A DNA stretch of 34,237 nt from IMG/VR virus record IMGVR_UViG_3300031566_000207, positions 1-34,237 of that record; one strand, given 5' to 3'. The notes beneath the pieces were generated by a model that saw nothing but the letters and a program-made list of their open reading frames with translations, had not been told where the DNA came from and ran no database searches. Shown here piece after piece: positions 17,105 through 34,237 of this stretch. Positions within the stretch are counted from its first letter, which is position 1, and each line of letters starts with the position of its first letter. This DNA comes from a virus. A program made the position numbers and the translations under genes.

Positions 17105-17680
17105 TCAGATAGACTCTGTGATTTTGGTGCCATCTGGTTTACTATAAACAAATTTAACTGGTTCTAATTCGAAGTTCATTCCTTCTAAGATATCGATATA
17201 CTTCTGTGCCATCTTAGGTTTAAGATATGCTATAGTCATATGGGGATGATAGTCTGGGTAATCTGTAGTAAAAGGTAACTCTTTACATAGAGTACTATTA
17301 ATTTCATGTAATACATCACCTTCCGCATCAAATTTTAAAACTTCAAATTTAGAATTTTCAAACTTAGAAACTTTAGTTAATTTAATAGTATTCAATGTAC
17401 TTTTAAATGAGTTTAATAATTTCATTACTTCATCGTCTGAAACCTCATCTGAATGTATTCCATACAGTAATGTTACATGGGGTTCATTTTCTAATCCGTA
17501 TGAATTATCTCCATCTTCCATATAAATATCACGTTCTTCAATTTTAGCATGTAGGTCATCCATTTCAGGCATATTAAAATAAATCATTGCACACCCGTAT
17601 GAGTATGTGTTTCCGCTTGCTTCATTTATTTTACGTAACTCCTTAAAGCTTTCAAATGTTTTTAATAAAAATTTACTCAT
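17105..17680 (-). CDS. 2H phosphoesterase with divergent head-tag-like N-terminus
   Basis: A 191-residue protein of the 2H (two-histidine) phosphoesterase superfamily, whose members include LigT, cyclic phosphodiesterases and the phage anti-CBASS protein Acb1. Both catalytic motifs are intact: H68-V-T70 in EPHVTLLYG, and H147-M-T149 in HPHMTIAYL, about 79 residues apart. The first 22 residues (MSKFLLKTFESFKELRKINE, then AS) contain KTFESF followed by Ile-Asn-Glu, a lengthened version of the tag shared by the bank at 24.9-34 kb, so it may be packaged and trimmed. The substrate is not determinable here: 2',5'-linked or 2',3'-cyclic RNA ends and cyclic oligonucleotides are all possible. It overlaps the upstream small gene by four bases. 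Confidence 0.8.
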   Translation of the reverse strand: MSKFLLKTFESFKELRKINEASGNTYSYGCAMIYFNMPEMDDLHAKIEERDIYMEDGDNSYGLENEPHVTLLYGIHSDEVSDDEVMKLLNSFKSTLNTIKLTKVSKFENSKFEVLKFDAEGDVLHEINSTLCKELPFTTDYPDYHPHMTIAYLKPKMAQKYIDILEGMNFELEPVKFVYSKPDGTKITESI

Positions 17681-20008: not shown

Positions 20009-20890
20009 CTATTTAGATTTGTTTCTAAATTTTAGATTACATTCTTCATCAAATGCATCTTGTCCAATGTTTTTAATTTGCTGATCAGCCCATAAATCAT
20101 CCCAGCCATCTCTCTGGAACCACATTAATTTAATGGGATTAAAGTTATAGGTATTTTTCTCTAATGAATTTTTCCATAAATTGTAAAAATTATTCATACC
20201 ATTAGGGGTAGAAGTCATAATAACTTTACCTTTAAATCTTAACGTTCTTTCTATATCTGCTAAGTCAGCATTGCATAACCATGCAGCGTTATCAGCTACA
20301 GTAACAAAATTCTTAAGACTAATATCTTTAGGTTTTAATTTTGCTCTTAATGAAGTAATTCTAGAATAATCATCACATACTATTTCATGTTTGTTAAATC
20401 TAGTTATTCCCTTTTGCATATAATATGGTATTTTAATATATGCAGCTCTTAATGATTCTATAAAATTATAATGAGTATTCATAGGTTCAGTTACAAATTG
20501 AACATATACTGGATTAAATAAAATAGACCAAAGTGAAAATATTTTATTTAATGTAGTTGTGCCCATTTGTCTACTAGAACAAACTATAGTTCTACCATTT
20601 ACATATGATTCTAAAACTTTCTTTTGATAATCTCTTAACTTAATAAGTTCTAATACACCTTCTATATTTAAGTTGTAATAATAATTTTCAGCAAAATAAA
20701 TAATATCATTTGCACATTTATTACATTCTTCTTGTTCAGTTGTTGTTCTTTTGAATTTTAAATAAGGTGCCCTATAATATGAAGAGACATATGGATTTCT
20801 TTTAAAGAAATATTTTTTCAATAAATTCTTTATCCAAGTATCTTCTCCTTTAAAAAGATACTCAATTCTTTTAGTTGAGTACTTTGACAT
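20009..20890 (-). CDS. Stand-alone terminase ATPase-like domain, catalytic motifs degenerate
   Basis: A 293-residue protein that aligns by eye with the N-terminal ATPase half of T4 gp17. Shared features are FAENYY (66-71), the adenine-binding L-R-D-Y-Q (85-89), the P-loop region S-R-Q-M-G-T-T-T (106-113), an IPYYMQKGITRFNKHEIVCDD segment, the Walker B region FVTVADN (195-201) and the coupling motif S-T-P-N-G with MNNFYNLW (227-238). The P-loop lysine (T4 SRQLGKTT) is replaced by T111, and N201 follows the Walker B aspartate D200, where a catalytic glutamate would be expected. The nuclease domain is absent: the protein ends at the domain boundary. It therefore looks like an inactive paralogue. 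A real terminase must lie outside the window. Confidence 0.75.
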   Translation of the reverse strand: MSKYSTKRIEYLFKGEDTWIKNLLKKYFFKRNPYVSSYYRAPYLKFKRTTTEQEECNKCANDIIYFAENYYYNLNIEGVLELIKLRDYQKKVLESYVNGRTIVCSSRQMGTTTLNKIFSLWSILFNPVYVQFVTEPMNTHYNFIESLRAAYIKIPYYMQKGITRFNKHEIVCDDYSRITSLRAKLKPKDISLKNFVTVADNAAWLCNADLADIERTLRFKGKVIMTSTPNGMNNFYNLWKNSLEKNTYNFNPIKLMWFQRDGWDDLWADQQIKNIGQDAFDEECNLKFRNKSK

Positions 20891-21889: not shown

Positions 21890-22948
21890 TTATTTATTGT
21901 AGCGAATGTAGGCATTGTCTGTTATCTGAATTAATTCAACAGTACCTGTAAATTCTAGTAAGTTAATTTTATCAGTATATGACATTGCACTTTTTAAGTA
22001 ATCAATAAGGTTATTTGTCCAGCCAGACAATGTATATTCAACTTCCCTGTATCTAACTACACCTTCTGATGTCTTTAATTTTCCTTTATTCCAAGTTTTT
22101 TGAACTTCTTTAGTTGACATTCCTCTAAATTTCTTTTTCAACTTAAATCCTTTCTTATATAACCATTTTGCATAATCTGCATGTTGGTCAATTTCAATTC
22201 CCATGAAATAAGTAGGCCCGGCTGATTCTAAAGCTTTATTTAAAATACTACCAACCATTACATAATCAGAACCTAGCGCTAGGGCTTTTATAATATCACT
22301 ATACCCTTTCATTCCCCCATCAGCTACTATCTTAGCTACACTATAAATCTTATCTGCAGAAAGTTTTTGTTTTATTAAATAGCATTCTTTAATCAAAGAA
22401 GCCATAGGATAACCTATACCTAATTGCTGAGTTGTTAAACATCCATTACCATTACCTATACCTATTCTTATATAGTCTGCACCCATTATAGATAATAATT
22501 TATAAGTCTCAGGATTCGCAACATTACCAACCATTAATGTATAATAGCTACCGTACATATCTTTAAACTTCTTAATAGCTATAGCCATTTTGGACATATG
22601 TCCGTTTGCAATATCTATTAAAATAAATCTGTTTTCTATATACGTTTCTCTTTCAATAAAGACTGATATAAACTCATCTAATCCATAACTCTTAAAAGAC
22701 ATAACACCATAATCATTTGCTGAAACTGGTTCACTTGTACTGCCTCTAGGTATACAGTAATTTATACGATTAGATTCAAATATTGTTATATTACTATTAT
22801 CAATAACTGTGTCCATTGGAGACGCAATAATAGGTAAATGCCATTTATAGCCTGTTTCTGATTGATAAAATGGAGTAACTTCAGACCTGCTTTCTATATC
22901 TGATTGTACTGCAGGTACAATCAGTAAATCATTAAAATCTAATTTCAT
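21890..22948 (-). CDS. IMP dehydrogenase / GMP reductase family protein
   Basis: A 352-residue TIM-barrel protein. Recognised elements: FNDLLIVP (5-12), LPIIASPMDTV (38-48), GNVANPETY (141-149), the active-site loop R-I-G-I-G-N-G-N-G-C170-L-T-T, V-A-D210-G-G (phosphate/IMP binding), SDYVMVGSIL (227-236) and F-R-G-M-S (274-278). There are no CBS domains. Length is closer to GMP reductase (about 345) than to bacterial IMP dehydrogenase (about 490). Either reaction would change the balance of guanine and adenine nucleotides in the infected cell. Which one it catalyses cannot be settled here. This gene is uncommon in T4-like phages. Confidence 0.85.
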   Translation of the reverse strand: MKLDFNDLLIVPAVQSDIESRSEVTPFYQSETGYKWHLPIIASPMDTVIDNSNITIFESNRINYCIPRGSTSEPVSANDYGVMSFKSYGLDEFISVFIERETYIENRFILIDIANGHMSKMAIAIKKFKDMYGSYYTLMVGNVANPETYKLLSIMGADYIRIGIGNGNGCLTTQQLGIGYPMASLIKECYLIKQKLSADKIYSVAKIVADGGMKGYSDIIKALALGSDYVMVGSILNKALESAGPTYFMGIEIDQHADYAKWLYKKGFKLKKKFRGMSTKEVQKTWNKGKLKTSEGVVRYREVEYTLSGWTNNLIDYLKSAMSYTDKINLLEFTGTVELIQITDNAYIRYNK

Positions 22949-24928: not shown

Positions 24929-25291
24929 TTATTCAGGTGAATTTTCATTCTTATCAGTTATCTCGGATTCCTCGATATGTATCTTAAGGAAGTGTGTTAC
25001 TTCATCAATATCATCTTTTGCAGTAGCAATATGATCTGCAGCCCAGTCATGGCCATCAATTAATATATCATCAATAGTATTATGGTCCATTGATAGTAAC
25101 TTATCTATATTTTCTTTAATTTCTTTTAGATTTTGAAAAAACATGTAATTTTGAAGTTGAGGTTCTTCGTCCTCTTCTTCTTCTTTGTTAATATCGTCAG
25201 TATCTTCATTTACATTTTCTTTTATATCCTTTTCATCTATAGGTGTTTCTGGACCTGATACAAAGTCTTCGAATGTTTTTATATATTTCAT
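24929..25291 (-). CDS. Acidic tagged protein with altered cleavage residue
   Basis: A 120-residue, strongly acidic protein (long Asp/Glu runs at residues 25-45). It starts MKYIKTFEDFVSG, the bank's tag except that Gly replaces the Glu after which a gp21-type protease would cut. Downstream Ile-Asp-Glu (about residue 20) and Val-Asn-Glu (about 29) could be used instead. The remainder is helical (NLKEIKENIDKLLSMD). Function unknown. It is the last member of the bank, before the terminator. Confidence 0.65.
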   Translation of the reverse strand: MKYIKTFEDFVSGPETPIDEKDIKENVNEDTDDINKEEEEDEEPQLQNYMFFQNLKEIKENIDKLLSMDHNTIDDILIDGHDWAADHIATAKDDIDEVTHFLKIHIEESEITDKNENSPE

Positions 25292-25292
25292 A

Positions 25293-25670
25293 TTACTTAT
25301 TTGGGTATTTTATCATTGTGCTTTTAAATCTAAAATCTTTATTCTTGGCTTTATTATAAACAAATCCAAAACTTTTATAAAAACTTGTAAGTCTATCTAA
25401 ACTTGCTCCAAAATCTTTACTAGGGGTGAGATGTATAATCATATTATTTGAATCTGCGTAATCTATCAAATCTTTAATAATTTTAGTAGCACATCCTTTA
25501 CCCCTCTTCTCCGGTTTGATTCTAATTAAATTTAATTCTAAACCATTTTCTTTTTGAAAAATGAATAACTTTTCTATACAGTCTTCGTACTTATGCCTTA
25601 AATCCATTTGAATTTTCGGCGGTTTCTCTAGTGATTCACTTACAAATTCTACTAGTGATTTAAGTTGCAT
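25293..25670 (-). CDS. GNAT-family N-acetyltransferase
   Basis: A 125-residue acetyltransferase that would transfer an acetyl group from acetyl-CoA. The CoA-binding motif A is K-R56-G-K-G-C-A61 with ATKIIKDLIDYA after it, preceded by LNLIRIKP (strand 4). The closing Y98-K-S-F-G-F motif of GNAT proteins is also present. The N-terminal strand region is short, since the first 12 residues (MQLKSLVEFVSE) look like a divergent form of the head tag (V-E-F-V-S-E). It sits inside the tagged bank and overlaps the upstream gene's stop by one base. Substrate unknown: a host protein, a toxin or an aminoacyl-tRNA are possible. Confidence 0.75.
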   Translation of the reverse strand: MQLKSLVEFVSESLEKPPKIQMDLRHKYEDCIEKLFIFQKENGLELNLIRIKPEKRGKGCATKIIKDLIDYADSNNMIIHLTPSKDFGASLDRLTSFYKSFGFVYNKAKNKDFRFKSTMIKYPNK

Positions 25671-26446
25671 TATTTTAAGGTTTGATTTTTAATTTCAATT
25701 GAAATTTTTGAATCAAGTCCTTTAATATCGCGTTTAATGTTTTCCATTTTTGCTTTTGCAAATGTACCAACTATTTTACCAGTCTTATCATAAAACTCAC
25801 ATTTAGAATTAGGGTCAGCTTTATCAATAAACTTTAAAATTTTGTCTGAGTTCTTTTTAACAGAATCTCCTGATATTACTATTCTAACCTGCTTCATTCC
25901 AAGTGCTGCATGTCCAGCTTTACTTAAACCGTCATCACTTTCTAATATGCTTTCATCTATTGCTTCTCTAACGTAATCATCCTGGCCATCATCATATCTA
26001 TATGTAGATTCACCATCTTCATCAGATTCACCTTTAAATTCAATAATAGCATTATTAATATGCTTATAAATTTCAAGTACTCTAACCTGTACACCTTTTA
26101 TATCAACAACATCTCCTACTTTAACACCTGACATATTTAATACAGGTGCGTTTTCATAGATATTAACAAATGATTCATATATTTCAATAAATTCAATATC
26201 TGATAATTCGATTTCATGCTCTCCACCATCCTCATCAGTACCAAATACACTTTTATCTTTAAGTTGTTTGCTATTAATATCTTCAGGTGTTATACCATAG
26301 TGTCTACCATTAGCAAAAAATTCCGCGCTCTTTACGTTCTTTATTACCTTTAATAAATCTCCAGCAGTTTTACCTTTAAAGTTAATTCTCTTTTCATTTA
26401 CAACACTTTCTGCTATAAATTGTTCGAATGTTTTAATGTATTTCAT
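25670..26446 (-). CDS. Tagged probable internal head protein, 258 residues
   Basis: The tag is MKYIKTFEQFIAE, with FIAE identical to the T4 internal-protein cleavage site. A second candidate site is Val-Val-Asn-Glu at 15-18. Beyond it is an N-terminal segment with NFKGKTAGDLLKVIKNVKSA, then a beta-type module (GVKVGDVVDIKGVQVRVLEIY) reminiscent of a small SH3-like barrel, an acidic linker, and a C-terminal part with KQVRIVISGDSVKKNSDKILKF. One of the largest members of the bank. No enzyme family recognised. Confidence 0.7.
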   Translation of the reverse strand: MKYIKTFEQFIAESVVNEKRINFKGKTAGDLLKVIKNVKSAEFFANGRHYGITPEDINSKQLKDKSVFGTDEDGGEHEIELSDIEFIEIYESFVNIYENAPVLNMSGVKVGDVVDIKGVQVRVLEIYKHINNAIIEFKGESDEDGESTYRYDDGQDDYVREAIDESILESDDGLSKAGHAALGMKQVRIVISGDSVKKNSDKILKFIDKADPNSKCEFYDKTGKIVGTFAKAKMENIKRDIKGLDSKISIEIKNQTLK

Positions 26447-26460
26447 GTTTTCTATTTTAA

Positions 26461-26958
26461 TTATCTTTTATCGTTCATTACTTCCTTGAATACCTTATCA
26501 GTATATACAAACCATGATTGCATCTTTTTCAATAAATCACCTTCATCTTTGTATTTTTCTTGATTGTATAATTTAGGATGATCCTTTTTAATTTTATCTA
26601 GTTCTAATGGATCAAATTCATCATATGCTATTACAAATGTAACTATATTCTTAGTATCTTCTATTATAGCAAGTGAAGTTAATGATGTCCAGTCATCAGA
26701 GTTTCTATAAGTCTCAGCCATTTTTTCATATTTAATAACACGACTCTTGTCTGGCATTCCAGATAAAATTGCTCCATGAGATACTTGTACTTTAGGTGTA
26801 TTGTATATGAAAGCACCAAAGTCTTTTCTATATTTAGCTGGAAGTTTAGCCTTTAATGCAAATACATTATTCTTATCAGATAAATCTAATTTATCATTCT
26901 TAGCTTCATGAATCTTAGACTCATTAATAAAATCTTCAAATGTTTTTATATGTTTCAT
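26461..26958 (-). CDS. Tagged probable internal head protein, 165 residues
   Basis: Starts MKHIKTFEDFINE. A second possible site, Ile-His-Glu, is at about residues 16-18. The rest is a mixed alpha/beta domain with KAKLPAKYRKDFGAFIYNTP and NIVTFVIAYDEFDPLELDKIKKD. Basic N-terminal half and helical C-terminus. No family recognised. It overlaps the upstream gene by four bases. Confidence 0.7.
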   Translation of the reverse strand: MKHIKTFEDFINESKIHEAKNDKLDLSDKNNVFALKAKLPAKYRKDFGAFIYNTPKVQVSHGAILSGMPDKSRVIKYEKMAETYRNSDDWTSLTSLAIIEDTKNIVTFVIAYDEFDPLELDKIKKDHPKLYNQEKYKDEGDLLKKMQSWFVYTDKVFKEVMNDKR

Positions 26959-27344
26959 ATATCAAAAAATTCTTTATTATTCGTAGGCCATAATGATTCA
27001 CTACCTTCTATTTCTTGATGTACACTAAAAGATATTTTATTATTTTTAATATCTTCTTTGTTTTCCTCTTTGAATTTATCTGTAAATTCTTTAGCTGCAT
27101 CCTGTAATTTTTTAGGAACTACTATAACTATATTATATCTAGTTTCTTTTCCTTTATTCAGACCTTTTTGTACTGATACTTTCATTTTATGGATCTGAGA
27201 TTCACTAACCTTGAACTTTGACTTAGTAGAACTAAGATAATCTCTAGCTATTTTCTGAACATCTGAAAATTTAACACCTTCATTTAAATCAGAATCTTCT
27301 GAATGTTCATTTATAAAATCTTCGAATGTTTTAATGTATTTCAT
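26955..27344 (-). CDS. Tagged internal head protein, copy A of a duplicated pair
   Basis: 129 residues, starting MKYIKTFEDFINEHSEDSDLNEG. FINE and the later DLNE are both candidate protease sites, which would remove about 22 residues. The mature part is Lys-rich with a helix-strand pattern (YNIVIVVPKKLQDAAKEFTDKF) and ends WPTNNKEFFDI. The gene at 28070-28462 encodes a paralogue with the first 35 residues and last 11 residues identical. No family recognised. Small basic proteins of this kind would suit DNA-bound head cargo. Confidence 0.75.
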   Translation of the reverse strand: MKYIKTFEDFINEHSEDSDLNEGVKFSDVQKIARDYLSSTKSKFKVSESQIHKMKVSVQKGLNKGKETRYNIVIVVPKKLQDAAKEFTDKFKEENKEDIKNNKISFSVHQEIEGSESLWPTNNKEFFDI

Positions 27345-27355
27345 AAGATTGTATA

Positions 27356-27640
27356 TTATTTTTCGTCAGGCCACTCAGTATTCCTTAAAGTGTCTTTTAA
27401 TTTGTCTAAAGTCTTTACAGAATCAAGTAATACTGTATATCCCTTCATCTTCTTAATTTCAGCCACCGAATAATTATCGTTAATTTCACCTCTAATATTA
27501 TCCAGATTAACTATCATTCTTTGAATATCATTAAGAATCGGGTCTACTTTTTTCCATATTTTTGGAGAAGCTTTTTTGGCTTCATTGATTTCAGAATTGT
27601 TTTCATTTATGAAATCTTCAAATGTTTTAATATTCTTCAT
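27356..27640 (-). CDS. Tagged small helical protein, 94 residues
   Basis: Starts MKNIKTFEDFINE, with a second Ile-Asn-Glu at about residues 18-20 (NNSEINEAKK). The mature portion is a single helical domain (WKKVDPILNDIQRMIVNLDNIR and LDSVKTLDKLKDTLRNTEW). Function unknown. Confidence 0.65.
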   Translation of the reverse strand: MKNIKTFEDFINENNSEINEAKKASPKIWKKVDPILNDIQRMIVNLDNIRGEINDNYSVAEIKKMKGYTVLLDSVKTLDKLKDTLRNTEWPDEK

Positions 27641-27641
27641 A

Positions 27642-28073
27642 TTATTGAATATTTTTTAATTTATCAAGTGCCTCTTCAGCTTCTTTGATTTTAAGTTTAA
27701 GAGCACCTGTTGATATTTCATCTGCATCATAAAAACCTGTAGCGTAAATTTCAACGTTATTGAAAATTATTGAAGCTTTAAGTCTTGCATGTTGATCTGA
27801 TACGCCATTAAACAATCCTAGTAATCTTACCTCTCTGCCATAATCATCACTCTCATATACTTTCCATATTTTAGTTTTGCCTTTAGTGCTAGCTAATAAT
27901 TCTAAATCATTTTGTAAAGATTCAGCCCATGGCTCGTTTGAGAGTATTGATTTTTTTTTACCGAACTTTCTTTTAAAAACTTCGATATCATCTAAAACAG
28001 ATTCAGTGATTAGACTTATACCAGAACTTTCAGCTTCATTTATAAATTGCTCAAATGTTTTTATATGTTTCAT
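27642..28073 (-). CDS. Tagged probable internal head protein, 143 residues
   Basis: Starts MKHIKTFEQFINEAESSG. The mature part begins with a helix, contains KTKIWKVYESDDYGREVRLLG and VEIYATGFYDADE (beta pattern), and ends in a Glu/Lys helix (KLKIKEAEEALDKLKNI). No family recognised. It overlaps the upstream copy-B gene by four bases, so the two are translationally coupled. Confidence 0.65.
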   Translation of the reverse strand: MKHIKTFEQFINEAESSGISLITESVLDDIEVFKRKFGKKKSILSNEPWAESLQNDLELLASTKGKTKIWKVYESDDYGREVRLLGLFNGVSDQHARLKASIIFNNVEIYATGFYDADEISTGALKLKIKEAEEALDKLKNIQ

Positions 28074-28462
28074 ATATCAAAAAATTCTTTATTATTCGTA
28101 GGCCATAATGTTTTACGTCCTTCTATTTCCTGTGAGATACTAAAGCTTATTTTATTATCTTTAATAGACTCTTTATTATCTTCTTTAAATTTATCTGCAA
28201 ATTCTCTAGCAGAATCAACTAGCTTTTCAGGAACTACTATTGCTATATTATATCTAACTTCTTTACCTTTCTTAGCCATACCTGACATTTTAGGTACTTT
28301 CATTTTATGAATTTGAGAATTACTAACTTTAAATTTAGATTTTGTACTAGTAAGAAAGTCTCTAGCAATCTTCTGTACATCTGAGAATTTAACACCTTCA
28401 TTTAAATCAGAGTCTTCTGAGTGTTCATTTATAAAATCTTCGAATGTTTTAATATACTTCAT
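28070..28462 (-). CDS. Tagged internal head protein, copy B of a duplicated pair
   Basis: 130 residues, about three-quarters identical to the product of 26955-27344. The identity is total over residues 1-35 and over the last 11 residues, lower between them. Differences concentrate in the middle, for example KVPKMSGMAKKGKEVRYN here against KVSVQKGLNKGKETRYN there. Both copies are followed by a tagged gene with a four-base overlap and near-identical junction DNA. It overlaps the upstream membrane-protein gene by four bases. Confidence 0.75.
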   Translation of the reverse strand: MKYIKTFEDFINEHSEDSDLNEGVKFSDVQKIARDFLTSTKSKFKVSNSQIHKMKVPKMSGMAKKGKEVRYNIAIVVPEKLVDSAREFADKFKEDNKESIKDNKISFSISQEIEGRKTLWPTNNKEFFDI

Positions 28463-28758
28463 CGTGATATACCTTTTTTACCTTCTTTATAATCTCTTCT
28501 TAATAAGAATCCAATTAATACAGGCGCAAATATTCCAAAGAATCCAATGACACCATAACTTATCCAATCTGGATTTTCGTTATGTTCAGCGAAGGAACTA
28601 ATTCCTCCAGCCCATCCTAATATCAGGTTACCAAAGAATCCTAATAAATATCCTTTTCTCATATACCATAACCACGGCCACCATTCATAGCCACCTGTAT
28701 AGTCTCTTGCTGCAACTGCCGCATCAACTTCAGCTTGTGTTCTTTTCTTCCAATTCAT
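28459..28758 (-). CDS. Small membrane protein within the tagged bank
   Basis: A 99-residue untagged protein with two probable membrane spans at about 35-55 (GYLLGFFGNLILGWAGGISS) and 67-87 (ISYGVIGFFGIFAPVLIGFL). A Trp-rich segment precedes the first (GGYEWWPWLWYM). The ends are basic (MNWKKR, LRRDYKEGKK). Two-span topology and closeness to the lysozyme gene make it a possible holin, but an alternative is a membrane-anchoring defence or exclusion protein. No recognised family. Confidence 0.55.
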   Translation of the reverse strand: MNWKKRTQAEVDAAVAARDYTGGYEWWPWLWYMRKGYLLGFFGNLILGWAGGISSFAEHNENPDWISYGVIGFFGIFAPVLIGFLLRRDYKEGKKGISR

Positions 28759-28785
28759 TAGTCTTTAATTTTTTCAATTAATATT

Positions 28786-29253
28786 TTAATAGGTTTTAAT
28801 TTTCCCACCATAAGATAGGCCAACCTTTCCACCACCCTTTGAATACGGTTCAATAATTAATTCACCAGTATCAAATTTAATAGTAAGTTTATCCCATCCT
28901 TTTACATCTTTTACTTCAACATCTTCTATTGTTTTGCCTTTATATTTATAAAGGTGGTTTAAAGCACTTGCTTCATTGACAGAATTTACATCTTCAATTG
29001 AAGAACTTTCTTTAACCATAGATTTAAGGTCGTTTTTAGATATAGCAAAGAATACGAATTTATCACCAGGACCTTCTGATACTCTAAACATATAGTCTTG
29101 GTTATTAGTATCGAATCCTAGATATTCACAATCTTCAATCCACTCATCTGTACCGGAATCTAATATAGAATAATCTTTCTTAAGTTTTAGATTTAAAGAT
29201 TCATTAATATTAGATTCATTAATAAAATCTTCGAATGATTTAATATTTTTCAT
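28786..29253 (-). CDS. Tagged probable internal head protein, 155 residues
   Basis: Starts MKNIKSFEDFINESNINES, with FINE and a repeated NINE site. The middle (YSILDSGTDEWIEDCEYLG and YMFRVSEGPGDKFVFFAISKNDL) looks like a compact alpha/beta domain. A further VNEAS at about residue 92 could be a third site. The C-terminal domain has YKGKTIEDVEVKDVKGWDKL and a Gly-rich end. Function unknown. Confidence 0.65.
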   Translation of the reverse strand: MKNIKSFEDFINESNINESLNLKLKKDYSILDSGTDEWIEDCEYLGFDTNNQDYMFRVSEGPGDKFVFFAISKNDLKSMVKESSSIEDVNSVNEASALNHLYKYKGKTIEDVEVKDVKGWDKLTIKFDTGELIIEPYSKGGGKVGLSYGGKIKTY

Positions 29254-29263
29254 ATAATAGTTT

Positions 29264-29560
29264 TTATTCTTCGTCTGATTTTAATTCTGCGGCTTTATCA
29301 AGTTCTTCAATAGCATTATTTAATTGCTTTTCGAAATCTTTCTTCTTTTCTGTTAGTTCTTTAAGTTTATCTTTAAGGTCGGTTTTCTTTTTATCGTCCT
29401 TTTCAGCTTTCCATTTTTCAACGGTCTTCTTCATTTCTAACATAGTTTTCTCTAATTTATTAGAAATAGAACTAATAGAAGCACTTTCGTTCATAGTCTC
29501 ATCATTAACCTCTTGGTTATTTTCTGCTATAAACTGCTCAAATGATTTGATGTTTTTCAT
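29264..29560 (-). CDS. Tagged coiled-coil protein, 98 residues
   Basis: Starts MKNIKSFEQFIAE, the FIAE form of the site, with Met-Asn-Glu a second possible site at about residues 23-25. After that it is one long Lys/Glu coiled coil (for example KLEKTMLEMKKTVEKWKAEK). This composition is like phage prohead core or scaffold proteins, as well as small internal proteins. Confidence 0.65.
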   Translation of the reverse strand: MKNIKSFEQFIAENNQEVNDETMNESASISSISNKLEKTMLEMKKTVEKWKAEKDDKKKTDLKDKLKELTEKKKDFEKQLNNAIEELDKAAELKSDEE

Positions 29561-29594
29561 ATTCTTTTGTTTTTTATCTAGTTTTAATATATAT

Positions 29595-30056
29595 CTACTT
29601 TTTAAAGTATAACTCTGCTTCAGCGTTTCTTCTTCTAACTAAGCCAGGTAATGTTTTACCACCTGCTTTAACCCACTTTTTAAACTCACCTGCTATACTA
29701 GGGTCATTTGGATTAATATTTAATTTCTTTAAAAGTGTAGAAGATTTTAAACTACCATTACCTAAATTATATGCAAATGATACAAGTGCATCAAATTGAT
29801 TTTGTGTTATAGTGTCAATGCAAAATGAATCAACTGCTCTTTCATATGTAACTAACATTTCAGCTAATAGTTTACTAGCTTCTTCTTCTGTTATGGGACT
29901 ATCATTCATAGTAACTTTTTTACCGTTAGTATAATATGTTGCGCCATATCCTATTGTTGGTACTTTAGCCGGACATAAATAAGGCTTTGCTCTAAACCCC
30001 TCAAACGACTTAATTAAGTCTATTCCATTTTTACCAGTTTTAGTTATCTTTTCCAT
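29595..30056 (-). CDS. Lysozyme / endolysin, GH24
   Basis: A 153-residue muramidase that cuts the peptidoglycan glycan backbone. I place the start at ATG 30056, one base after the upstream stop. The longer frame starting at 30092 would overlap the upstream gene. The active site fits E-8aa-(D/C)-5aa-T exactly: E19 in SFEGF, C28 in LCPAKV and T34 in TIGYG. A Cys in place of the usual Asp is a known variant. The later elements (FDALVSFAYNLGNGSLKSSTLL and LPGLVRRRNAEAELY) match lambdoid and P22-type lysozymes. No signal peptide or SAR segment, so a holin would be needed. It lacks the head tag of its neighbours. Confidence 0.9.
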   Translation of the reverse strand: MEKITKTGKNGIDLIKSFEGFRAKPYLCPAKVPTIGYGATYYTNGKKVTMNDSPITEEEASKLLAEMLVTYERAVDSFCIDTITQNQFDALVSFAYNLGNGSLKSSTLLKKLNINPNDPSIAGEFKKWVKAGGKTLPGLVRRRNAEAELYFKK

Positions 30057-30057
30057 T

Positions 30058-30705
30058 TTAATATCCATTTCTTTTAATCGACGCTTGTACAAATCTCACA
30101 GCATCTTCGACTGGGATATCCCAGTCCTTAGCAAGTCTTTTTAAGAATGATAATACTTTAGCATCACCTTCATCATTTGAACCTTCATTAACTTCTGATT
30201 CATTTAATTTAGTACCTATAACCATATTATGTGGAATTTTATCCCAACCTACAACATATACAGGTTCACCTCTACCATCTTTAGTAACTTTATCAATACG
30301 TGCATAATATACATTCTTACTTGTTTCAGATTTACTATTAGCTACCATTGTACTAGCCGGGAAAATAACTCTATAAAATATACCTTCACCTTTCTTATAC
30401 TTATCTTTAACTTGAATATCTTTGGCTTTCGGCTCTTTAACTGTTTCTGGGCCACGACCTTCATTAACAGATTCGCTTAAATTACTATTAGTAACTTCTA
30501 TATCAATATCTTCGAAGTCCTGTAATACATTCATTGCTGTATCTTCATCTTTAAAAGTATAATGATTAGAGCTATCTTTTTTATATTCTTTTCTATAAGA
30601 ATCATCTAGATAATTTAAAGCTTTTTTAGCATCTCTTGTAGCAACTTCAATAAAATAAATTTTAGCTTCATTTACAAATTGTTCAAATGTCTTTATATGT
30701 TTCAT
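30058..30705 (-). CDS. Tagged probable internal head protein, 215 residues
   Basis: Starts MKHIKTFEQFVNE. Additional candidate sites are S-E-S-V-N-E at about residue 80 and L-N-E-S-E-V-N-E near residue 170, so cleavage could yield several pieces. Between them, residues 14-70 (VATRDAKKALNYLDDSYRKEY) resemble a small alpha/beta repeat. Residues 95-165 form a beta-rich domain (IFYRVIFPASTMVAN; GEPVYVVGWDKIPHNMVIGT). The C-terminal helical domain (VLSFLKRLAKDWDIP) completes it. Function unknown. Confidence 0.7.
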   Translation of the reverse strand: MKHIKTFEQFVNEAKIYFIEVATRDAKKALNYLDDSYRKEYKKDSSNHYTFKDEDTAMNVLQDFEDIDIEVTNSNLSESVNEGRGPETVKEPKAKDIQVKDKYKKGEGIFYRVIFPASTMVANSKSETSKNVYYARIDKVTKDGRGEPVYVVGWDKIPHNMVIGTKLNESEVNEGSNDEGDAKVLSFLKRLAKDWDIPVEDAVRFVQASIKRNGY

Positions 30706-30706
30706 A

Positions 30707-31519
30707 TTATTGACTTATTGTTATAGTTTTATTTCTTAAGTTAATAGATATGAAACCTCTTTCAAACTCAATATTTACTTGATTTTCTGAATCTGCTTCT
30801 ATACTATCAATACGACCTATGCGTTCTAATATATCTTCAATTTCTTCTTCAGTATCAGGATCTTTACCACCTCCGCCGAATAATTTAGATAAATCCTTTG
30901 TTGTTAGTGTTACACTTGAAGCACCTTCATTAATTACTGATTCATTTAATTCAATATCACCGGCGTCAGTTAAGGCTTTAAAATCTATAAGGGCTATTTC
31001 AAATTCCTTAGGTGCACCATTTGGATATCCATCTAATTTACCTTTAGTAATCTTAAATGTAGTAGACTTATTTTTACTATTAAATCCAGTAACTTCAATT
31101 TCAGCTTTATGTGGAATTGTAAACTTCTTATTATTAATAGTAGTAAATGTAAATCCATTTCTAACAATGAAGTACTTATCCATATCTGCACCTTCATCTA
31201 AGAACACTTCTGTTGATTCTTCTGATTCATTTGTACCAATATTTTTAAATCCACCTCTAACATTTTGCCATATTGTATAGTAATACTTATTAGCTGGATA
31301 ATCTTTTAAGACTTGTCTCTTAACTTCATTATAGTCATCATTCTTACCTACGCTAACTCTATGTTTTTCACGGTTACCATCTTTGTCTGCTTCACGTGCA
31401 AAGATTTGAAAGAAAAATGGCATACTAGCCTTACTTGGTTTTTTTGGTTTAAATCTTTTATCTAATTCATTAATATTATTCTCATTAACAAATTGCTCGA
31501 ATGTTTTAATATATTTCAT
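30707..31519 (-). CDS. Tagged probable internal head protein, 270 residues
   Basis: The largest tagged protein here. Starts MKYIKTFEQFVNENNINE with two candidate sites, and has a later L-N-E-S-V-I-N-E-G at about residue 195. After the tag comes a domain starting FFFQIFAREADKDGNREKH with EVKRQVLKDYPANKYYYTIWQN. A second beta domain has KYFIVRNGFTFTTINNKKFT. The C-terminal part has LFGGGGKDPDTEEEIEDILERI and a beta-rich end. The site near residue 195 would release the C-terminal domain separately. No enzyme motif recognised. Confidence 0.7.
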   Translation of the reverse strand: MKYIKTFEQFVNENNINELDKRFKPKKPSKASMPFFFQIFAREADKDGNREKHRVSVGKNDDYNEVKRQVLKDYPANKYYYTIWQNVRGGFKNIGTNESEESTEVFLDEGADMDKYFIVRNGFTFTTINNKKFTIPHKAEIEVTGFNSKNKSTTFKITKGKLDGYPNGAPKEFEIALIDFKALTDAGDIELNESVINEGASSVTLTTKDLSKLFGGGGKDPDTEEEIEDILERIGRIDSIEADSENQVNIEFERGFISINLRNKTITISQ

Positions 31520-31524
31520 AGTAT

Positions 31525-31935
31525 TTAATAATTTGATTTTGAGATATAATTCATATATAGATTCATGATATTAACCATTAGTGGTTCACTTGATTTCATC
31601 TGTCTTTCAATTTCCTTTTCATTTATTCTAATCTTAGCAGGACTTGAACCAAATTTAATAGTCATTGTATAACTACCATCATCATAGCCATGTAAATTAA
31701 TGATATCATTATTAGTCATAATAACTTCAATAGTAATTCTAGTTTCAGGGTCAGAATAATAAACACCATCTACGCTTTTGATTTTTACATCTTTAGTAGG
31801 AGGCGTCCAACTAAAGCTATTAATAAAATTCACATCAGGCTTTTTATCAAAACCTTTTTCAAAGTCTATTGAAACCTTAGCTTCATTTAATATGCTTTCA
31901 TTAATAAAGCTTTCGAATGTTTTAATATGCTTCAT
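31525..31935 (-). CDS. Tagged probable internal head protein, 136 residues
   Basis: Starts MKHIKTFESFINESILNEAK, with FINE and ILNE as successive sites. The mature protein is beta-rich (KIKSVDGVYYSDPETRITIEV and GSYTMTIKFGSSPAKIRI) and ends with helical IEDRQMK-like and MNLYMNYISKSNY segments. Its start overlaps the upstream stop by one base. Function unknown. Confidence 0.65.
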   Translation of the reverse strand: MKHIKTFESFINESILNEAKVSIDFEKGFDKKPDVNFINSFSWTPPTKDVKIKSVDGVYYSDPETRITIEVIMTNNDIINLHGYDDGSYTMTIKFGSSPAKIRINEKEIERQMKSSEPLMVNIMNLYMNYISKSNY

Positions 31936-32414
31936 TATTTAATTAATATATTTTTAGGAAATTCCTCAACTATAAACTTACTACCCGTTTCAGGGTGAGT
32001 AATTTCTAATGTAACACCAAATGAAGATTGACCACCTTTAACTACACATGTAGCACCGTTTAAATCTTCCCAACCACCTGCTAAATCTAAGTCATATGAT
32101 TTAATAGCCTTCTTATCTAATACTTTAATAGCTTTCTTAGATACAATTTGCTTTGCTTCTTTGAAATTAATTTTTAAAGTAAACTTCTTGCCATTACTAA
32201 ATGTTCCAGCTTCATTAACTATCTGCTCATCGACCGATTTTTTAAATTTCATCGAATTAATTTTATTACTTAAATCATCTATTTCTTTATCATATTTAGT
32301 AGTCTTTTCAAATTCCTTTCTTCTATAGAGTTGATTTAATTTATAGCGTAATTTATTAACACCAACCATGTTTCCTTCAGAAACAAACGCCTCAAATGTT
32401 TTAATGTGTTTCAT
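31935..32414 (-). CDS. Tagged probable internal head protein, 159 residues
   Basis: Starts MKHIKTFEAFVSE, the Ser form of the site. A Lys/Arg-rich helix follows (VNKLRYKLNQLYRRKEFEK), then I-V-N-E-A at about residue 67, a second site that would release the C-terminal beta domain (KFTLKINFKEAKQIVSKKA and GGQSSFGVTLEITHPETGS). Function unknown. Confidence 0.65.
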   Translation of the reverse strand: MKHIKTFEAFVSEGNMVGVNKLRYKLNQLYRRKEFEKTTKYDKEIDDLSNKINSMKFKKSVDEQIVNEAGTFSNGKKFTLKINFKEAKQIVSKKAIKVLDKKAIKSYDLDLAGGWEDLNGATCVVKGGQSSFGVTLEITHPETGSKFIVEEFPKNILIK

Positions 32415-32415
32415 A

Positions 32416-32949
32416 TTACTTTAATTGCTTTTCAATATATTTTAATAACTCTTTACGTGCAGGTTCAATATGCTTTCTTTCAGTAGCAGGACCCTCTTTC
32501 CATTCTAAGAATATTCTTCTGATATCCATAACTGCTGTATCTAAATCTGGATCCATTGCTTCTATATAACCCGCTGATTCAATAACTGACTCACTTTCTT
32601 TAAGTGCATCTTCAATTTCTTTCATTACCTCATCTTGGGTTTTAGTTTCGCCGTCACCTTCGATAGTTATGTATTCACCATTTACTTGAATAGAAATATA
32701 ATTCTCATCGTCTTTCCATTTCTTATAAGTCTTACCATTCTTAGCTCTATAAGTACCAACGTATTTAAGACGCTCACGTTCATTTAATTCCTGTTCAGAT
32801 TCATTAGTAACATCTTCAGGTTTAATTTCTTCCTGTTCTTCATCTTCTGTTTTAGGAGTATCAGAAGTTCCTGCTTCAATATCTAATGGAGCATCGCCTG
32901 AACCATTCTGCTCACCGGTAAACTCCTCAAATGTTTTAATGTATTTCAT
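32416..32949 (-). CDS. Tagged acidic probable internal head protein, 177 residues
   Basis: Starts MKYIKTFEEFTGE, where Thr-Gly-Glu is the most diverged of the clear sites. An acidic region follows (residues 17-55, many Glu and Asp, including E-L-N-E). The central part is a small beta module (YVGTYRAKNGKTYKKWKDD and YISIQVNGEYITIEGD). The C-terminus is helical (DIRRIFLEWKEG and ARKELLKYIEKQLK). Acidic composition suits a core protein. No family recognised. Confidence 0.65.
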   Translation of the reverse strand: MKYIKTFEEFTGEQNGSGDAPLDIEAGTSDTPKTEDEEQEEIKPEDVTNESEQELNERERLKYVGTYRAKNGKTYKKWKDDENYISIQVNGEYITIEGDGETKTQDEVMKEIEDALKESESVIESAGYIEAMDPDLDTAVMDIRRIFLEWKEGPATERKHIEPARKELLKYIEKQLK

Positions 32950-33074
32950 ATTATTTAATTATTTTCATGTTATATTTATCTTAGTATTAATAGTCTTATA
33001 TGGTCTCAAGGCTTTCGAGCGAAATTTTTGAACTGTTTCTTCTTTTGCGCGCACTAGCTTGGGTACCTGGGACT
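32950..33074. other. GC-richer intergenic gap inside the tagged bank
   Basis: A 125-base gap, the longest in the bank. The block at 33001-33073 is visibly richer in G and C than its surroundings and holds a short inverted repeat TTTCG-AG-CGAAA at about 33013-33024 and a GGTACC palindrome at 33062-33067. It could contain a promoter or structured leader for the genes that follow. No tRNA, ORF or terminator with a T-run is recognisable. Confidence 0.35.
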
Positions 33075-33419
33075 TTATTTATTTTTATTTAATTCTCTAT
33101 ACATATCATTACGTCCATTTTCATAAGATTGTTTAATTTTAAATTCTTCTAGCTCTTGTTCAAGTTTTAAACCCTCTTTTTTTAATTCCTCATACATTTC
33201 ACTAGCACGTTGATATCTCTTATCACTTCTTTCATCTCTAATATTAAATTCCTTTTCAACATGTTGTTCATATAGTTCTTGACGAACTTCAATATCTTTA
33301 ACAGTAATCAACATACCTGATACTTCATATATCAATAATATGACAGCGCCAATGATGGTTAGTATCTTCCACCATGAATCTGCAAATGATGCAACTCTCT
33401 TAACTGTTTCTTCTGGCAT
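33075..33419 (-). CDS. Membrane protein with long coiled-coil tail
   Basis: A 114-residue protein with one membrane span at about residues 16-38 (WWKILTIIGAVILLIYEVSGML) and a long charged coiled coil after it (VEKEFNIRDERSDKRYQRASE, then KKEGLKLEQELEEFK). No tag. A single N-terminal span with a large soluble tail is the plan of T4 holin T and of inner-membrane spanin subunits, so a lysis role is possible. No sequence identity to those is claimed. Confidence 0.55.
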   Translation of the reverse strand: MPEETVKRVASFADSWWKILTIIGAVILLIYEVSGMLITVKDIEVRQELYEQHVEKEFNIRDERSDKRYQRASEMYEELKKEGLKLEQELEEFKIKQSYENGRNDMYRELNKNK

Positions 33420-33433
33420 ATTAGTATTTTTAT

Positions 33434-33931
33434 TTAAATTTGAGGGGGCTGAGTATTTTTAGCTAACCAATCAATGAAAGCCATAGGGTCTTTATCGATT
33501 GTCTTATGTGTAGTTTGATTATAGGCATGATATACTAGTTGCCAGCCATCATAATCATATTTAAATCTATTCTTACCTTCTTCAAGGGGCACATCGTTAT
33601 CTTTACCTTCAACTACATGCTTAAGAACATCAACCAGATTTTTACTATCTGCATATAGTCTCTTATAGTTCTTAGCCTTTAAGTCTCTATTCATACCATC
33701 CAAGTATTTAGATATCTCATCTGAAAATCTATCTTCATTGACAATATCTTCTGAAACTGCCGCAGAAGATTCTTTAATATGTATTACATATCCCTTCTTA
33801 CCATCTTTTACAAATGAATAACTTACCTTAGCTTTAGGATTCTTAGCCTTAGCAACTTTTAATTCTCTTTGTAATTCTTCCATGTTTACACCTTCATTAA
33901 TAAATGCCTCATATGTTTTAATGTGTTTCAT
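33434..33931 (-). CDS. Tagged probable internal head protein, 165 residues
   Basis: The start at ATG 33929-33931 gives MKHIKTYEAFINEG, the bank's tag with Tyr for the first Phe. The longer frame from 34012 adds 27 residues of a Met-rich, unlikely sequence that overlaps the upstream gene, so it is rejected. Candidate second sites are S-E-D-I-V-N-E at about residue 62. The mature part is Lys-rich (VAKAKNPKAKVSYSFVKDGKKG), with a C-terminal domain containing YDYDGWQLVYHAYNQTTH-like residues. No family recognised. Confidence 0.7.
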   Translation of the reverse strand: MKHIKTYEAFINEGVNMEELQRELKVAKAKNPKAKVSYSFVKDGKKGYVIHIKESSAAVSEDIVNEDRFSDEISKYLDGMNRDLKAKNYKRLYADSKNLVDVLKHVVEGKDNDVPLEEGKNRFKYDYDGWQLVYHAYNQTTHKTIDKDPMAFIDWLAKNTQPPQI

Positions 33932-33932
33932 A

Positions 33933-34237
33933 TTAATAATCCTGTCCATTATTTTTTCCTTCATCATAACCTTCATCATAACCATCACTATATTTAAATT
34001 GACCAAATTCATCTAAAGCATCTAGTATAATCTTAACTGAATCTTTATCCATAGTTTCTAATAGTTTAATAAACTTAGGAAACTCATGTTTACCATGGTG
34101 GCTTTTAATAGCATCTTTAATTTGATTATCCATATAGCTATTATTTAAACCTTCATTTACAGATGCTTCAAATACTATACTATTCTTACCTTCTTGGACT
34201 ATTGATTCAGATTCCAATACAATACTAGCAGAACCGT
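33933..34237 (-). CDS. Probable internal head protein, 5' end beyond window
   Basis: The frame is open to the right edge of the window, so the true start lies beyond it. A TTG at 34217 is not needed as a start. Visible residues read GSASIVLESESIVQEG, then IVFEASVNEG, both with the Val-x-Glu/Gln-Glu form of second cleavage sites seen in the tagged proteins. The tag itself would be outside. The C-terminal portion is helical and ends in a D-E-G-Y-D-E-G-K repeat-like acidic tail. It ends one base before the next tagged start. Confidence 0.55.
   Translation of the reverse strand, partial: GSASIVLESESIVQEGKNSIVFEASVNEGLNNSYMDNQIKDAIKSHHGKHEFPKFIKLLETMDKDSVKIILDALDEFGQFKYSDGYDEGYDEGKNNGQDY

Follow-up and report, generated by a model that had tools for sequence, protein, structure and literature searches.

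A nuclease-less, motif-degenerate copy of the large terminase ATPase in a huge-phage fragment, and its counterparts in other large phages

The packaging motors of tailed phages have been described as rings of one large terminase protein (TerL). Mitchell and Rao are said to have reported, in 2004, deviant Walker A motifs in TerLs with a displaced P-loop lysine. In IMG/VR, dozens of intact TerLs of 530-560 aa carry KSRQMGIST instead of GK[ST], the lysine being displaced upstream. A shorter type of protein is also on record. The product CBB_274 of phage CBB has an incomplete gp17 domain and was considered a truncated large terminase, which Buttimer et al. (2017, PMC5259590) called unusual; truncated large terminases also occur in other Rak2-like phages, phiM12 and phiN3 (PMC5259590). 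Beyond this remark on truncation, no paper on catalytically dead TerL copies, on members of this kind in huge phages or on their recurrence was found in the open-licence literature. Catalytic loss, recurrence and presence in phages of 460-735 kb appear undescribed in the open-licence literature searched.

This gene lies on a 34,237-nucleotide stretch of viral DNA (IMG/VR record IMGVR_UViG_3300031566_000207), hereafter the window. The features of the gene are as follows:

20009..20890, minus strand: nuclease-less, motif-degenerate gp17-type ATPase half of 293 aa (ORF list, homology and fold).
20552..20575, minus strand: degenerate Walker A, residues 106-113, SRQMGTTT (SRQLGKTT in gp17), with the classical and the displaced lysine both absent (motif alignment).
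20282..20308, minus strand: degenerate Walker B, residues 195-203, FVTVADNAA, with Asn201 in place of the catalytic Glu (motif alignment).
20198..20215, minus strand: coupling motif kept, residues 226-231, TSTPNG (motif alignment).
20021..20122, minus strand: lid-end segment, approximately residues 257-290, W...IGQDAFDEECNLKF (alignment); the stop codon comes next, where TerLs run on into the nuclease domain.

The frame is intact, as the preliminary description had stated: it runs from an ATG start to the stop codon without interruption over 293 aa, and the gene is also intact in a second, almost identical contig (99.9% over 12.3 kb). Apart from that contig, no close relative and no moderately diverged homologue of the gene was found in viral_contigs, and the search of genome_contigs returned nothing real. 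All strong family matches of the protein are to terminase-large-subunit families (phrog_5989 'terminase large subunit', 1e-26; phrog_2, 3e-15). TerL is the only named function among the families matched, and no profile of the small terminase subunit (TerS) was matched. The protein aligns to residues 109-342 of T4 gp17 (~2e-23; PDB 2o0h/3ezk/3cpe), and it matches 2516 phage records, which are mostly annotated TerLs among the matches listed. Its AlphaFold2 model (pLDDT 79.5, pTM 0.83) has the T4 gp17 ATPase as top PDB fold match (E 1.6e-16, TMq 0.72). Homology to TerL is thus far above chance, and retention of a gp17-like ATPase half, as first proposed, agrees with both the gp17 alignment and the fold.

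The window protein has in common with T4 gp17 (PDB 2o0h, 2o0j, 3cpe) the ATPase fold, the Q motif, the SRQ arginine, STPNG and the end of the lid. Q89, R107, Q108, G110, D200 and S227-TPNG are kept, as are 34 of the 50 conserved TerL columns when compared with the full-length TerLs aligned. Unlike gp17, it lacks the P-loop lysine, which is replaced by Thr (SSRQMGTTT versus SRQLGKTT), carries Asn201 instead of the Walker B Glu (FVTVADNAA versus MIYIDECAF) at a position where 100% of the reference TerLs aligned have Glu, and has no RNase H nuclease domain. Both substitutions and the kept coupling motif had been read correctly in the preliminary description. However, the change of Lys to Thr alone is no proof of inactivity, and was rejected as sufficient evidence of it, because many intact TerLs without GK[ST] carry the upstream lysine (KSRQMGIST). 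Such TerLs share with the window protein an SRQMG core without GK[ST], but they keep the upstream lysine, DE and the nuclease, whereas the window protein has none of these: with Ser at the displaced position, it is left without either lysine, and without the Glu. The earlier term 'catalytically dead' finds support in the combined loss of both lysine positions and of the Glu, and the protein has, judging from its motifs, very probably lost ATP hydrolysis.

The nuclease half is indeed missing. None is present in the gene, and no nuclease domain scored above the inclusion threshold in any of the six frames of the 34 kb window. A fragment of a split-intein TerL was considered and rejected, as there is no intein half at the C-terminus of the window protein and no nuclease in the window. 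Elsewhere, many ORFs for the TerL ATPase do end with the N-half of a split intein, close to where ATPase and nuclease meet, as in contigs L102, L115, L124, L132 and L145; such ORFs are easily mistaken for nuclease-less TerLs.

The neighbours of the gene encode an IMP dehydrogenase (IMPDH)-like protein, a peptidoglycan-binding-like protein and small unknown proteins; no recognised packaging gene adjoins it. The IMP dehydrogenase/GMP reductase-like gene (21890-22948, minus strand) is closest to those of LR756502, LR756500, LR745206 and LR756504 (45-50% identity), followed by Lak phages, and is thus common to the window, to phages of 460-642 kb and to Lak phages. The window represents part of the genome of a huge phage, a relative of LR756500/LR756501/LR756504. 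A full TerL is present in LR756502, LR756500, LR745206, LR756504 and Lak phages. No full TerL was found within the 34 kb fragment, where the gene does not lie beside a TerL. The gene would be a paralogue, as originally proposed, in that every complete relative checked has a full TerL, the fragment itself having none.

Other features of the window were also noted. At 24929-34012 (minus strand), at least 14 ORFs begin with MK[YHN]IK[TS]FExF[IV]xE or near it, a start that we take to resemble the capsid-targeting peptide of T4 internal proteins; by this analogy, they are likely to be a large set of prohead-packed proteins. LR756500 has comparable tags (MKYIQTYKDFL, MKYIKSYENF) next to its TerL. 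A 2H phosphoesterase gene at 17105-17680 (minus strand) also matches anti-CBASS Acb1 (Pfam 4e-7) and is a possible counter-defence gene. T4 late promoters (TATAAATA) are not enriched.

Nuclease-less copies were found in other phages. LR756500 (462 kb) encodes, immediately after its full TerL, a copy of 270 aa (SSRQMGISM, IDN), and it also has a 61-aa broken fragment. In LR756504 (636 kb) a strongly degenerate copy runs across the record end, and a full TerL is again present. In LR756501 (735 kb) the copy is 390 aa long (KSRQMGITA, IDEF) and lies some 76-90 kb away from the TerL pieces of this phage; contigs L172 and L196 carry homologues of it. Like the window protein, the short copies of LR756501, L172 and L196 lack the nuclease and, where complete, stop once the lid is finished; their motif reads SRQMGI. 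Unlike it, they keep the displaced upstream lysine and DE, and the complete ones contain an insert of about 80 aa found in their own TerL. On contig L204 the gene order is TerS (phrog_445), copy, TerL. The TerLs of some of these phages are themselves unusual: that of LR756500 is in two genes (L036:6237-9825), apparently joined by a P-loop split intein (GK/C...N/T), the halves in LR756501 (609433-611265 and 624027-624242) lie about 13 kb apart, apparently joined in the same way, and the single TerL ORF of L204 (2024-4663) contains at least two inteins, one of them in the P-loop.

Profile searches identified copies besides a full TerL in Sinorhizobium phage Phosso (469 kb; GRSMGIT, ADNAS) and in CBB (E 4.8e-20). 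In Phosso, the copy is found close to the major capsid gene, under the annotation 'terminase small subunit'. At PV764938.1 249808-250653 (L332:4309-5154), a gene with that annotation has a TerL ATPase-like sequence. In Atu_ph07 (490 kb) the profile search gave a weak match to a second, short TerL-like ORF besides the full TerL, and this phage probably carries a nuclease-less copy too. The copy of Hallingskeid (366 kb; SRQRGTTS, MDNTW) was weak by single-sequence search and that of RaK2 (PRQTGTTT) was assigned by position. The CBB and RaK2 copies overlap the start of TerL by 14 bp, and a profile of the CBB, RaK2 and Hallingskeid copies matched the TerL profile at 99.4% (E 5e-21, hhalign). In Sinorhizobium phage phiM19, gp83 is a copy of 196 aa between TerS and TerL; it keeps the Walker motifs intact and ends earlier than the window protein. 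CBB_274, its Rak2-like equivalents and the short TerLs of phiM12, phiN3 and phiM19 are, like the window protein, gp17-like ATPase halves without nuclease, and all are additional to a full TerL. However, the Rak2-like and phiM12-type copies adjoin TerL, whereas the window gene is unlinked in the fragment, and the trees show no joint clade.

No second copy was detected by searching LR756502, LR745206, Lak-A2, Lak-B5, XacN1, PTm1, PAU, T4, PA5oct, phage G, Vibrio 2.275.O and CM1. As none is detectable in LR756502, LR745206, Lak and several other jumbo phages, a huge genome does not in itself require a copy. ORF256 of XacN1, upstream of TerL, was considered as a copy and rejected as unrelated.

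Trees were built after exclusion of the motif columns. Grouping all short copies in one clade, and with it a single origin, was rejected (AU p 5e-9), long branches limiting the detail. The shared Asp-Asn was likewise rejected as a clade marker (AU p 0.004 for joining its four carriers in one clade). A clade restricted to the window, LR756500, LR756504 and L204 copies was not rejected in the smaller tree (p 0.41). The LR756501-type copies group with their own TerL (99/95). As these copies are nearest to their own TerL and share its insert, and as a single origin is rejected, nuclease loss has recurred. The best reading is that nuclease-less copies arose repeatedly, long branches limiting trust in the detail.

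We give about half of our confidence to the window protein being a pseudoenzyme accessory of the DNA-packaging machine, derived from a T4-type TerL. Such a protein would keep the ATPase fold and lid, having lost ATP hydrolysis and the nuclease that cuts DNA. Through its inherited TerL surfaces it may attach to TerL, TerS or the portal; when very long genomes are packaged, it could thereby modulate assembly of the motor, its processivity or the headful cut. The inherited surfaces, the lost hydrolysis and cutting and the linkage to TerS and TerL in several lineages would together point to an accessory packaging part. The earlier suggestion that the protein regulates packaging or binds the portal gains some ground from the operons, namely the TerS-copy-TerL order in L204 and phiM19, the TerL overlaps in CBB and RaK2 and the copy beside TerL in LR756500. 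Against such a role, the window gene has no packaging neighbours, the copies of LR756501/L172, Phosso and Atu_ph07 are unlinked to TerL, the ATPase motifs of phiM19 gp83 are intact, and the copies are patchy and very divergent. More tentatively, large T4-like phages may have repeatedly evolved a dead, nuclease-less TerL subunit that works in the motor or initiation complex, in which case motors would be hetero-oligomeric.

The protein could instead replace or assist the small terminase, forming a TerL-like but dead subunit of a ring, by which DNA is recognised or presented to TerL. The Rak2-like copy, which sits at the TerS position and overlaps TerL, and the annotation of the Phosso copy are in line with this; however, in L204 and phiM19 a TerS of its own lies upstream of the copy, and the window protein matches no TerS profile, and we consider this function unlikely. 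It is likewise unlikely that the protein has left packaging for a DNA-binding, replication or host-takeover role. The window gene does lie among non-structural genes, and several copies are unlinked to TerL, but linkage to TerS and TerL is repeated in other lineages and the C-terminal lid region is conserved.

That the gene is a decaying duplicate without function appears rather improbable. Catalytic motifs lost to varying degrees, patchy presence and the broken fragment in LR756500 are what decay could produce, and the end branches of the copies (0.8-3.7 outside the LR756501 type) indicate strong divergence, which fits relaxed constraint too. However, the 293-codon frame of the window gene is intact at 26% GC, its GC3 is ordinary for the window, its end point is conserved and such copies recur in many phages. 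The LR756501-type copies are under purifying selection, with dN/dS of 0.137 and 0.127 (Nei-Gojobori; 0-0.20 for neighbouring genes), values not simply transferable to the window gene because that subtype keeps DE and the displaced lysine. The initial view that the gene is not mere decay is thus strengthened by recurrence and intact frames, the selection estimate of about 0.13 applying to the LR756501 subtype and not to the window gene.

A decoy for terminase-sensing defences of the Avs type, also proposed initially, found no support and is very improbable: the fold is TerL-like and its weaker matches include Avs3-bound TerL (8dgc), but nothing ties the gene to counter-defence, a TerL-like epitope could equally trigger an Avs sensor and the nuclease half is absent. 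An ATPase still active through an unorthodox P-loop is scarcely credible, for although displaced-Lys TerLs exist and Q89, R107 and TSTPNG are kept, the lysine is absent at both positions and the catalytic Glu is Asn.

Genes of this kind are labelled TerL, TerS or hypothetical, which calls for caution in annotation. The cultured carriers CBB, RaK2, Phosso and Hallingskeid make the role of these proteins directly testable. Recurrent pseudo-TerLs in phages that package about 190-735 kb would suggest an extra part of the motor, or a regulator of it.
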